From NCBI GenBank assembly GCA_012837735.1, contig DUQP01000030.1, positions 1-48,673 of the forward strand: DNA of 48,673 nucleotides. The letters are read 5' to 3'. Each line of letters starts with the position of its first letter. Position 1 is the first letter of the stretch. Origin of the DNA: Bacillota bacterium (GTDB lineage Bacteria; Bacillota; Sulfobacillia; UBA3575; DUQP01). Made by a program: the position numbers and the translations under genes. The notes under the pieces were generated by a model. The model worked only from the letters and a program-made list of their open reading frames with translations. It ran no database searches and had not been told where the DNA came from. Below are positions 9,981-37,498 of this stretch, one piece after another.

Positions 9981-10549
9981 TACCTTTGCATGAAAGCCTT
10001 TCCGGCCTCCTGGGCTTCAAACAGGGCGTTTGGATGCTGTTCGATTTGCCCTGCCCAATCAATGCCGGGATAGAATAAAGAACCCTGATAAGAAAAATTC
10101 ATCACCGTGAAAAAAACCCTCACCACTGCCCGCGCATGATCGAAAAAGCGCGGGTTTTTCATGCCAGCGGCACAAAGGAAGAAACCCCGCCGATCCTCCG
10201 CCCTGGTGACGATCGGTTGCTTGAGAACATATTTGGCCACCCAGAAACACTGAAACCGGTCAATGAATGCCTTGAGTTGTGCCGGTACGGAGGCAAAGAA
10301 AATGGGTGCCGCAATCACGATCCGGTCAGCGGCCAACACCTTATCATACAACATTTGCATATCATCCTGGAGCACACAACAACCACTTCGCGCACAACGG
10401 CCACATGATTGGCATGGCCGAATGTCGAATTCGGTCAAGACCACCTTATCGACTTCCTCTGCTTGGCGCGCTCCCTGCAAGAAAGCATCCAACAGTCGCT
10501 CCGTGTTACCGTTTCGGCGTGGGCTGGCAGCTATCCCTAGCAGGCGCAT
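9980..10549 (-). CDS. Flavodoxin-fold NAD(P)H/FMN oxidoreductase with an iron-sulfur Cys motif (ISF-like)
   Basis: A 189-residue flavodoxin-fold protein. The FMN phosphate loop is SPRRNGNTERL (residues 9-19), and Cys46, Cys49, Cys52 and Cys57/58 (CQSCGRC then GCC) match the compact motif of iron-sulfur flavoproteins of anaerobes, which bind a [4Fe-4S] cluster. APIFFASVPAQLKAFIDR is the conserved flavin-side loop. The role is probably electron transfer or detoxification of oxygen species or quinones. ATG start with AGGGTG; only nine bases after the small gene upstream, so the two form an operon. Confidence 0.82.
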   Translation of the reverse strand: MRLLGIAASPRRNGNTERLLDAFLQGARQAEEVDKVVLTEFDIRPCQSCGRCARSGCCVLQDDMQMLYDKVLAADRIVIAAPIFFASVPAQLKAFIDRFQCFWVAKYVLKQPIVTRAEDRRGFFLCAAGMKNPRFFDHARAVVRVFFTVMNFSYQGSLFYPGIDWAGQIEQHPNALFEAQEAGKAFMQR

Positions 10550-34162: not shown

Positions 34163-36295
34163 CTACGGGTAACGTAGACCGCCACTCTTTTTTTCAAGCC
34201 GACACACCAATACCGTCATGTCATCGTCGTTCCCACGTGCCACTGCCGTTTGCAGGAGGTGATCCGCAATCAGCTGTGGCCGGCGGGAACTGAGTTGTTT
34301 CAAGGCAGCGGCAATCTGTTCATCTGCACCCTCTTGACCAGGGATGATGCCATCGCTGCATAATACCAGCACATCACCCGCACAGATGTTCCTGTGCATG
34401 CTTTCGATTTCCAGATCTTGCAGGATCCCGACCGGAAGTGAAGCTGCCTTAATCGTCATCACTTCTTGGCCACGCAACAAGAAACTGGCAGGGGCCCCGA
34501 TCTTTACTAACTCTATTTCACCACTACCCAAATCGAGTACCGCCAAATCCAATGTGGCGAAAATTTCCTCCGGAGAACGCAATAGCAGCACAGAATTAAT
34601 AATCTGCACAGCCAATTGTGGCTCCACTCCGCTGGCCAGAAGCTGGTCAAGTAAGGCCAAAGCGGCCCTGCTTTCCTGGGCGGCCCTTTCGCCAAAACCC
34701 ATCCCATCACTGATGGCCATCAGCAAATGTCGGTCCGATAGCCTTTTCATCAAATAACTGTCGCCAGAAGCACGTCCGCGCTCACGGGCTCGTCGCGCCA
34801 CCCCGGTTTGGACCTCCCAGCCCACAGACGCCGCATCAGCAGGTTTGACGTTCTGATCCACCTCTTTGGCCAATATTTTTAATATGCGGGCCAATCCCTT
34901 CAGTTGCCATTCCACCAGTCCCTTCCCTTGCGTCAATCGTTGTCGCCAACGGTGCTCTGACTGCCACCTGTCCAGTAAGTGATCCAGGGCAGCCTGCAAG
35001 TCAGCCTGTCTATGACATTCCCCCGTGAAACTTAGCGGTTTAGCCATTTGTCGCGCCCAGATCAAAGTAGTCAAAAAGCGTTGGGTTTTTGTCCTTTCTC
35101 TTTCCCAGCATCTTTCGTATTCCCCGCAGCCCCGGCAAACCAAAGCCATCATCCCTTGCTGCAGGCCCGCCACTCCTTTTGCTTCATCTGCTCTTGCAGT
35201 GGTCGCCGCGGTCTGGGCAAACGAGACCGCCAATTCCTCGCACACAGCGGCAAAATTACGCAGGCGTTGTCCCGCTTGAGAGGTCGCTACCGGCGCAGCC
35301 CGCTCATTTATTGGGATAGGCTTAATGAGGGTCACACCGTGCAAGAATTCACCCGGCACAACCAGCAAAATCGCACTCGCCAACAAGGCTGCATAAAAAA
35401 AGTCCAATGTCATGCCAGCGCTTTCAAAATAAATGGAGGCAATCAATCCGCCGAGCAAAAACCCCAGCATACTACCCACCCTTCCCAAGCTATTGAAAGC
35501 ACCGGCGATTATCCCGCCGCAAGCCAGGGAAATCAACGGTAATGAGGTGACAGCAGAGCCCAACCCATAGGCTAAACCTGTTACGACGCCCGCTGCTGCT
35601 CCATAGGCTGATCCCAACGCAAAAGCGAATGCCAACGTCAATGCCGCCCCGGCAACCATCTGCCACACAAACGGTCCTGTACGCACATCCGTCAAGCCGA
35701 TTACGGCACTGGAAGCCAAAGCAATAATGACCATCCGCTGTCTTTGTCCATCGTCTTCATCCTGGGCGCAGACTATGATCAGCCCTTGATATAGCAGATA
35801 GGCCATAAAAAATGCTAAAACCGCTTCCATGCACACTGAAACTAACTCAAACGCGGAAAACGTGTTCCATAATAACGCCCCACCCTGGACAAGCAAAAGA
35901 CTGGCAGCCGCTAAACCAGCCGCCATCCACACCGAGCCCCGGAACCGGGGGGAACGGTTGAGAGCTAGTATGGCGCCGAAGCATAACAACGCTGTCACAA
36001 CCCGACTTCCGGAAAGAACCAGCAGTCCTCCTCCGGTTACTCCCACCGTCGCCGGCAACAGGTACTGCGGCCACATTACGCCCACCGCGGCCATGAAAGC
36101 CGGCCCCATCGGTGCCAGGGTTGCCAAAAATGAAGAGCGCCCCAGTAAAACCCCCGCCACCACGATGGTTAATATGAAATGCCACCCGGTGACACCTTGC
36201 CGCCACCACCGGCTAAGAACTTTTCCAGATTCACCCTCCGCCCTTTGTCTTTGCCAAGCAGGATATCCGGTTTTATACACAACCCACCGCTCCAT
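34163..36295 (-). CDS. spoIIE: Stage II sporulation protein E
   Basis: SpoIIE dephosphorylates SpoIIAA to activate sigma-F in the forespore and interacts with the division ring. The 710-residue protein has an N-terminal region with about ten hydrophobic segments (about 37-310), a central regulatory part with a CRGCGEYERCW Cys motif, and a C-terminal PP2C phosphatase domain. The latter shows SDGMGFGERAAQESRAALALL, VLDLGSGEIELVKIGAPASF, LPVGI, LVLCSDGI and NDDDMTVLV, which supply the metal-binding Asp residues. The ATG has only a weak GAAAG as SD. The promoter at 36314-36346 has sporulation-type features. Confidence 0.96.
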   Translation of the reverse strand: MERWVVYKTGYPAWQRQRAEGESGKVLSRWWRQGVTGWHFILTIVVAGVLLGRSSFLATLAPMGPAFMAAVGVMWPQYLLPATVGVTGGGLLVLSGSRVVTALLCFGAILALNRSPRFRGSVWMAAGLAAASLLLVQGGALLWNTFSAFELVSVCMEAVLAFFMAYLLYQGLIIVCAQDEDDGQRQRMVIIALASSAVIGLTDVRTGPFVWQMVAGAALTLAFAFALGSAYGAAAGVVTGLAYGLGSAVTSLPLISLACGGIIAGAFNSLGRVGSMLGFLLGGLIASIYFESAGMTLDFFYAALLASAILLVVPGEFLHGVTLIKPIPINERAAPVATSQAGQRLRNFAAVCEELAVSFAQTAATTARADEAKGVAGLQQGMMALVCRGCGEYERCWERERTKTQRFLTTLIWARQMAKPLSFTGECHRQADLQAALDHLLDRWQSEHRWRQRLTQGKGLVEWQLKGLARILKILAKEVDQNVKPADAASVGWEVQTGVARRARERGRASGDSYLMKRLSDRHLLMAISDGMGFGERAAQESRAALALLDQLLASGVEPQLAVQIINSVLLLRSPEEIFATLDLAVLDLGSGEIELVKIGAPASFLLRGQEVMTIKAASLPVGILQDLEIESMHRNICAGDVLVLCSDGIIPGQEGADEQIAAALKQLSSRRPQLIADHLLQTAVARGNDDDMTVLVCRLEKKSGGLRYP

Positions 36296-36313: not shown

Positions 36314-36346
36314 ATGTTAGCGCATATTCTGCCTCTATTTTGTCAA
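36314..36346 (-). promoter_or_regulatory. Candidate Spo0A-controlled promoter of spoIIE (21-bp spacer)
   Basis: A perfect TTGACA (36341-36346) and TAACAT (36314-36319) on the minus strand are separated by 21 bases. In B. subtilis spoIIE and spoIIG use sigma-A promoters with over-long spacers activated by Spo0A. The -35 overlaps TTTGTCAAAG (plus-strand 36339-36348), 8 of 10 to the 0A box TTTGTCGAAT. The leader to the ATG would be only about 12 bases. Confidence 0.5.
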
Positions 36347-36387
36347 AGCAAGGTGTTGCATCCCCTCACTCGCCCGCATTTAGCGAC

Positions 36388-36416
36388 AAAAATGCCCGGG
36401 GGCAATCCCCCGGGGC
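36388..36416 (-). terminator. Terminator after the Spo0E-like gene
   Basis: GCCCCGGGGG, ATTG and CCCCCGGGC form a GC-rich stem (one bulged base) followed by ATTTTTG on the minus strand. It isolates the Spo0E-like gene from spoIIE. Confidence 0.8.
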
Positions 36417-36485: not shown

Positions 36486-36650
36486 CTAGGCTATTGTTTT
36501 GTAGTATTCATTCAGCAATTGATCCAGTTTCTTGCTCACTCCCAGCAACCTAACATCATGCAAAGACATTTCTTGAGCCATAGTTTGCAAAACCGTCCGC
36601 ATTTCGTCAATCTGCCGCAGAACTTCTTGAGGTTTTCCTGACATTAACAT
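36486..36650 (-). CDS. Spo0E-like aspartyl-phosphate phosphatase (small ORF)
   Basis: A 54-residue protein found by reading the spoIIE-GH73 gap. It is one helix-turn-helix hairpin: a first amphipathic helix with QEVLRQIDEMRTVLQTMAQE, then GVSKKLDQLLNEYYK. The SxxLDxxLNxYY pattern is the signature of the Spo0E family (PF09388), which removes phosphate from Spo0A~P and so delays sporulation. ATG start with GGGAG six bases upstream; a second ATG lies at 36644. It has a promoter at 36689-36717, a full Spo0A box at 36727-36736 and its own terminator. Confidence 0.85.
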   Translation of the reverse strand: MLMSGKPQEVLRQIDEMRTVLQTMAQEMSLHDVRLLGVSKKLDQLLNEYYKTIA

Positions 36651-36688
36651 GCCCTACTCCCAACATTTAGTGTAGTTTCAACAAACCC

Positions 36689-36717
36689 ATTACAGCATAT
36701 AGCATACCGGTAGTCAA
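36689..36717 (-). promoter_or_regulatory. Sigma-A promoter of the Spo0E-like gene
   Basis: TTGACT, 17 bases and TGTAAT on the minus strand; both hexamers match five of six consensus bases. The expected start is about 30 bases before the ATG. Confidence 0.65.
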
Positions 36718-36726
36718 TGGCCGTAA

Positions 36727-36736
36727 TTTGTCGAAT
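36727..36736. promoter_or_regulatory. Spo0A box (0A box)
   Basis: TTTGTCGAAT on the plus strand is a complete match to the usual 10-base Spo0A-box consensus. Its centre is about 50 bases upstream of the predicted start of the Spo0E-like gene. Seven-base TGTCGAA cores also occur by chance in coding DNA, so the context carries the weight. Confidence 0.55.
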
Positions 36737-36784: not shown

Positions 36785-37498
36785 TCAACGAGCTCTTTTC
36801 GCACCGGGCGGGATTTCAAGGAATCTCCGGCGCGCCCCATCCACCAGAGCCTCCAAGCGCAGCTCATTAGCCAGCACAGTACACCTGCGCAAGTAATTTG
36901 GATCAGTAGCATATGGGTATTTACATTCGGTTAGCAAAGCTTGCAGATAGCGCAGAGGTTTAGCCTGATACTTTAGCGCTGGTGCAAAAACGTTATTTGT
37001 CAGCAGTCTGCCGCGATCTTGAAAACAATCTGCGATGCTATCATACACCTTAAATTTAGCTCTCATGGCTCGCCGGCGACCCGCTATTTGTTCCCACGTA
37101 TCTACTTCAATGAATCGTCCCTGCCCATGCCACTTCACCCCAAATAGATTGTTTGCTTTCGCCAAGACCCCTCGCCCAAAATTTGATTCATGTGCCGCTT
37201 GCACCAATGTTGTCACAGCAGGTATGCCAGTCGTGATTTCCAAAGCCAGCGCTGGCTCCATTAACCGGCAGATAAATGCCAAACGTGCCAACAAGCTTTT
37301 CGTGCGCGGACCAACCACACCATCTGCCGCCAGACCATAAAATGTTTGGATTTGGATAATCGCCTTTTCCATTTCCTGGTCAAAAATTGGGGCTTCCGTT
37401 AATGCGATGACAGGTGATAAAAATTGTCCAACCAGATTAATTTGACGCTTAATGTTCAGGATATCCGGACCCTGTTCACCCTTTTTGATCGCTATCAA
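36785..37498 (-). CDS. Peptidoglycan-binding plus glucosaminidase (GH73-type) cell-wall hydrolase
   Basis: A 237-residue protein. Residues 1-75 are a peptidoglycan-binding domain (FDQEMEKAIIQIQTFYGL then DGVVGPRTKSLL). The rest is a mannosyl-glycoprotein endo-beta-N-acetylglucosaminidase domain: AAHESNFGRGVLAKANNLFGVKW with the catalytic Glu in HESNFG, then FKVYDSIADCFQDRGRLL. There is no signal peptide, so it may act in the mother cell or be exported otherwise, for example in cortex or septal wall remodelling. The start is a TTG directly after GAGAGGGG, a very short spacing, because an in-frame stop lies just upstream; no better start was found. Confidence 0.85.
   Translation of the reverse strand: MIAIKKGEQGPDILNIKRQINLVGQFLSPVIALTEAPIFDQEMEKAIIQIQTFYGLAADGVVGPRTKSLLARLAFICRLMEPALALEITTGIPAVTTLVQAAHESNFGRGVLAKANNLFGVKWHGQGRFIEVDTWEQIAGRRRAMRAKFKVYDSIADCFQDRGRLLTNNVFAPALKYQAKPLRYLQALLTECKYPYATDPNYLRRCTVLANELRLEALVDGARRRFLEIPPGAKRAR

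Follow-up and report, generated by a model that had tools for sequence, protein, structure and literature searches.

A predicted Spo0A box in the promoter of a spo0E-like gene and a probable direct negative feedback on Spo0A in a Bacillota bacterium

Introduction

Entry into sporulation depends on the speed and the extent of the rise in Spo0A~P. In B. subtilis, the Spo0A-activated sigma-A promoters of spoIIG and spoIIE are marked by a long spacing between the Spo0A box (0A box) and the -10 hexamer. The core of the 0A box is TGTCGAA (PMC3485338); activation is associated with Spo0A sites located 5' of the -35, repression with sites that cover the promoter and the start (PMC4168254). Spo0E contains an SxxxD motif, and the function of the B. 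subtilis protein depends critically on its aspartate (PMC11115286). In the same organism the route described from Spo0A~P to spo0E is an indirect relay, in which abrB is repressed by Spo0A~P and spo0E by AbrB (PMC4214203; PMC3269414), and deletion of spo0E did not abolish pulsing (PMC3269414). The Spo0E of C. difficile (53 aa; PMC11115286) is regulated through RstA binding according to the searched text of that paper, which contains no discussion of transcriptional feedback. In the literature searched, no paper was found that describes a spo0E-like gene as directly controlled by Spo0A, a search that does not establish priority.

Here we describe a spo0E-like gene from a Bacillota bacterium, located in a contig of 48,673 nucleotides that was analysed over its whole length (the window). 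The predicted sign of its regulation is that of the B. subtilis Spo0A-AbrB-Spo0E loop, in that more Spo0A~P would give more Spo0E, but where that loop is relayed via AbrB, the box found here points to a single direct step.

Results and Discussion

The spo0E-like gene, its product and its neighbours

The gene and its surroundings are as follows.

34163..36295, minus strand: spoIIE (PF19732 and PF07228), downstream neighbour, a separate unit with its own box
36395..36414, minus strand: intrinsic terminator separating the spo0E-like gene from spoIIE, with a stem of 8 GC pairs, a 4-nt loop and a T-rich tail
36486..36650, minus strand: spo0E-like gene, 54 aa, ATG start, with a second possible ATG two codons in
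36657..36661, minus strand: GGGAG, probable ribosome binding site read from the sequence, 6 nt 5' of the ATG
36785..37498, minus strand: GH73 glucosaminidase with a PG-binding domain (PF01832, PF01471), upstream neighbour, co-directional

An earlier note on this DNA had described a 54-codon ORF with the signature of Spo0E phosphatases between spoIIE and a GH73-type gene, followed by a terminator, and had proposed a profile search with PF09388. All of this holds: the ORF contains SKKLDQLLNEYY, both neighbours are matched by Pfam profiles, the terminator is present at 36414-36395 with its 8 GC pairs and then a T-rich stretch (fold of the region -20.6 kcal/mol, with a z of only -1.4), and the protein matches PF09388 (SpoOE-like) over profile positions 2-42 of 42 with 38.2 bits (E 1.4e-9), the curated cut-off being 23 bits. 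It is the sole PF09388 member above the cut-off in the genome.

In an alignment of 49 sequences, this protein and 48 homologues drawn from other genomes, the only columns without variation are S39 and D43, the two residues that define the SxxxD signature. The protein is otherwise divergent, with no more than 38% identity to any aligned homologue, and a PDB sequence search with it returned one chance match and nothing else. An AlphaFold2 model (mean pLDDT 88.6) is a two-helix antiparallel hairpin with helices at 6-27 and 33-53. The B. anthracis Spo0E-type phosphatase 2c0s ranked fourth in a fold search with this model (TM 0.76, 0.9 A over 44 columns, E 1.8), a match that carries no significance because helical hairpins are too common. 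The protein thus resembles the Spo0E/YisI/YnzD phosphatases (PF09388) in family profile, length, SxxxD motif and a predicted hairpin like that of 2c0s, and differs from them in its divergent sequence, in the direct 0A box in its promoter and in that its activity is predicted. With C. difficile Spo0E it shares size, the SxxxD motif and the expected docking on the Spo0A receiver. These features suggest that the product is a Spo0E-family antagonist of Spo0A~P, presumably acting as a phosphatase.

A Spo0E-fold protein might instead hold Spo0A and so prevent its activation, or act on other partners as well, rather than being chiefly a phosphatase, and this would leave the transcriptional loop discussed below the same. 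C. difficile Spo0E, which is described as binding both Spo0A and RstA and preventing Spo0A activation (PMC11210211; PMC11115286), provides a precedent, and the low identity to all aligned homologues is in keeping with it. Both signature residues are kept, however, and the aspartate is the one critical in B. subtilis (PMC11115286), which makes this alternative rather unlikely.

Because the GH73 neighbour, with its end at 36785, runs in the same direction, the 0A box described below is not part of a divergent gene. Among the matches listed for 154 genomes of the class, a survey in which short genes can be missed, a spo0E-like gene and spoIIE share a contig only in this genome. The two were rejected as a conserved pair, and their adjacency, being private to this genome among those matches, carries no weight.

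A Spo0A box upstream of the spo0E-like gene

The region upstream of the gene contains the following elements.

36689..36697, minus strand: extended -10, TGC TGTAAT (TGTAAT at 36694-36689), of an N17 promoter, read from the sequence
36701..36706, minus strand: alternative -10 TATGCT, N22 after TTCGACA, a match of only 4/6 at spoIIG-like spacing
36712..36717, minus strand: -35-like TTGACT of the N17 promoter, read from the sequence
36727..36735, plus strand: 0A box TTTGTCGAA, exact match, TTCGACAAA on the gene's strand

The predicted Spo0A site, TTTGTCGAAT on the plus strand at 36727-36736, has the core TGTCGAA with T/A flanks. It is a perfect box 77 bp upstream of the ORF with its centre near -49 of the transcription start predicted from the N17 promoter, in agreement with the earlier claim of a complete box about 50 bases before the expected start; its orientation, TTCGACAAA on the gene's strand, was absent from that claim. 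There is no second perfect 0A box adjacent to it. The TTGACT-N17-TGTAAT hexamers reported earlier are likewise present, with a TGC extended -10 in addition, and an automatic promoter scan had missed them because it accepted only -10 hexamers with A as the second base. Read along the gene's strand, the order is TTCGACAAA-TTACGGCCA-TTGACT-N17-TGTAAT, and then GGGAG.

This arrangement resembles the spoIIG and spoIIE promoters in having a TTYGACA box in the same orientation, upstream of or at the -35, and N22 to a -10-like hexamer. It differs from them in that this hexamer (TATGCT) is weak and a separate TTGACT-N17-TGTAAT promoter overlaps; the layout of a box at the -35 with N21-22 to a good -10 is clear in relatives and at spoIIE. 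The working promoter may be box-N22-TATGCT, with TTCGACA serving as the -35, rather than TTGACT-N17-TGTAAT. The weakness of the N22 hexamer counts against reading the site as an activating one, as does the N17 promoter, which might need no activator.

Placement of the box in the genome

The frequency of the box is uninformative by itself, and the evidence is its position and its recurrence in relatives. The window contains three perfect TTTGTCRAA sites against 1.2 expected, a number reached by 12 of 100 shuffles, and there is no enrichment over the genome (37 matches against 35 for the reversed control pattern). At 37 sites per 1.55 Mb, the chance of one in a 120-bp upstream region is approximately 0.003, and a perfect box is found at three of the four genes that could be named beforehand, spo0E-like, spoIIE and spoIIGA. 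At the fourth, spo0A, the matches are imperfect (AGTCGAA and CGTCGAA). The elements at the other two genes are as follows.

36339..36347, plus strand: spoIIE 0A box TTTGTCAAA, in the same orientation to its gene as the spo0E-like box
36319-36314, minus strand: spoIIE -10 TAACAT, N21 after the box on the gene's strand
C18:11027-11035 (L049:1501-1509): spoIIGA perfect 0A box, upstream of the PF03419 match at C18:10076-10936

All three boxes read TTYGACAAA on the strand of their gene, in the same orientation, and the distance from box to -10 is N22 (TATAAT) at spoIIGA, N21 (TAACAT) at spoIIE and N22 (TATGCT) at the spo0E-like gene. The spoIIGA promoter is TTTGACA-N22-TATAAT, and at spoIIE the complement of the box, TTTGACAAA, doubles as the -35 (window 36314-36347). 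The genome encodes Spo0A in one copy with receiver and DNA-binding domains (Spo0A_C 156 bits) and has four AbrB-domain genes.

The box could be a chance match in front of a gene transcribed constitutively from the N17 promoter, as the unremarkable counts in the window and in the genome would allow. Given the low expectation per upstream region, the presence of a box at each of the spo0E-like, spoIIE and spoIIGA genes argues against this, as does the recurrence of the 0A core in other families described next, and we consider a chance match highly improbable.

Recurrence of the 0A core before spo0E-like genes

Over-represented 7-mers were ranked, without reference to any motif, in the 200 bp before PF09388 matches in a class set (72 genes, 31 genera) and in a phylum set from outside the class (70 genes, 62 genera). 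TGTCGAA was the top-ranked 7-mer in the class, above the ribosome-site words (10 of 31 genera, 1.66 expected), and again in the independent phylum set (18 of 62 genera, 1.30 expected), where the P of ~5e-15 comes from a simple model and the matches are the best-scoring ones rather than a random sample; genera are not independent in either set. Counted by family with this genome excluded, 17 of 53 families have the core, whereas 300 dinucleotide shuffles gave 2.6 on average and never more than 7. Upstream of spo0E-like genes the core is 4-fold (class) and 17-fold (phylum) as dense as elsewhere in these loci, and the reversed word is nearly absent from the upstream regions examined. In the class loci TGTCGAA occurs 11 times in 14.4 kb upstream of spo0E-like genes and 8 times in 5.6 kb upstream of spoIIE, as compared with 6 times in 22.6 kb upstream of other ORFs. 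The A variant of the box, TGTCAAA, was not enriched upstream of spo0E-like genes in either set, and about 70% of the genera are without the exact core upstream of the sampled gene.

Among the genomes compared, the family is represented by this genome alone and its order by one other genome, which has a degenerate box, CCGACA-N21-TATAAT, before a weak spo0E-like match. A search of genome contigs with back-translated patterns of SpoIIE and of the 54-aa protein confirmed no close relatives. The pairing of box and spo0E-like gene across spore-forming families suggests that a direct self-limiting loop may be common rather than an accident.

Promoter spacing and the sign of regulation

The spacing between box and -10 was scanned allowing at most one mismatch in the box and requiring at least 5/6 in the -10. 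The spoIIE promoters of the class served as a positive control, and 11 of 30 loci gave a match; every one had a spacing of N21 or N22, although all spacings from 12 to 33 were scanned. Among spo0E-like promoters the N20-22 layout was found in 10 genera, against a shuffle mean of 0.55 and maximum of 3, the N20-22 range having been chosen in the light of known promoters and of individual cases noted beforehand. When -10 matches are averaged over all genera as a function of their distance to the box, no significant peak appears (P 0.7). One spo0E-like promoter (L085) has TATGAT at N22, and its box and a near-box are 10 bp apart. Activation by Spo0A~P is favoured because some spo0E-like promoters match the spacing of spoIIE.

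The opposite sign would arise if Spo0A~P bound the box and repressed the gene, creating a double-negative, and so positive, feedback that could serve as a commitment switch. The box is near the promoter, in relatives it occurs in either orientation and at varied distances, and the N17 promoter appears capable of functioning on its own, all of which would fit a repressor. However, the box has the same position, at the -35 or 5' of it, as the boxes of the activated spoIIE and spoIIGA promoters in this genome, and a Spo0A site 5' of the -35 is associated with activation (PMC4168254); repression is accordingly quite unlikely.

A direct feedback loop

Under activation by Spo0A~P, the loop would have three steps. 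Rising Spo0A~P would bind the 0A box just upstream of, or replacing, the -35 of a sigma-A-type promoter; binding would switch on the spo0E-like gene, as at spoIIG and spoIIE; and the Spo0E-like protein would dock on the Spo0A receiver and remove the phosphate, closing a direct negative feedback. We regard such direct Spo0A-to-Spo0E feedback as probable, with the binding, activation, phosphatase activity and dynamic effect all predicted from sequence. The earlier note had proposed that Spo0A~P controls, next to spoIIE, a phosphatase that acts on Spo0A~P. The boxes at spoIIE and spoIIGA and the enrichment of the 0A core strengthen the proposed control; the position next to spoIIE is not conserved and no longer contributes.

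An antagonist switched on by the regulator that it inactivates would cap, delay or pulse the rise in Spo0A~P. It is conceivable, though we hold it only tentatively, that the direct loop occurs widely among spore-formers, perhaps as the ancestral state, and that B. subtilis acquired its AbrB-relayed loop by later rewiring. If many spore-formers use the one-step loop, models of sporulation timing based on B. subtilis would not be directly transferable to much of the phylum. The direct loop is open to testing in a culturable member through the mutation of a few bases.

Other Spo0A boxes and Spo0E-like genes

The genome is only 1.55 Mb in size (94.9% complete), keeps spo0A, spoIIE and spoIIGA, and has no close relative among the genomes compared. 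Elsewhere in it, a perfect 0A box is located ~50 bp before a SpoVT-like AbrB-family gene (L059:1501-1509; G000:C36:20662-20670), and two perfect boxes 55 bp apart (L055 and L056; G000:C29:37946 and 38001) are flanked by a pair of converging ORFs, one of which is decarboxylase-like. In the window, two more TGTCGAA cores are found within the near-palindromes CCAATGTCGAATTGG and CGAATGTCGAATTCG (2309-2323 and 10419-10433, respectively).

A second Spo0E-like ORF of 63 aa, containing SQALDELI, is present on another contig (L002:1471-1659; G000:C58:14191-14313), scores 17.4 bits, under the Pfam cut-off, and adjoins a rubrerythrin-like gene. In one family and a neighbour of it the 0A box abuts GAAGGAWAT, which is like a sigma-H -35 (L144, L147, L149, L156, L161, L162 and L172), and the spo0E-like genes of this group may be under both Spo0A and sigma-H. 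Two further genomes, G156 and G305, have ten and thirteen Spo0E-like matches, respectively, several of which are 52 aa long, score identically and lie on different contigs, so that the family may be spreading.
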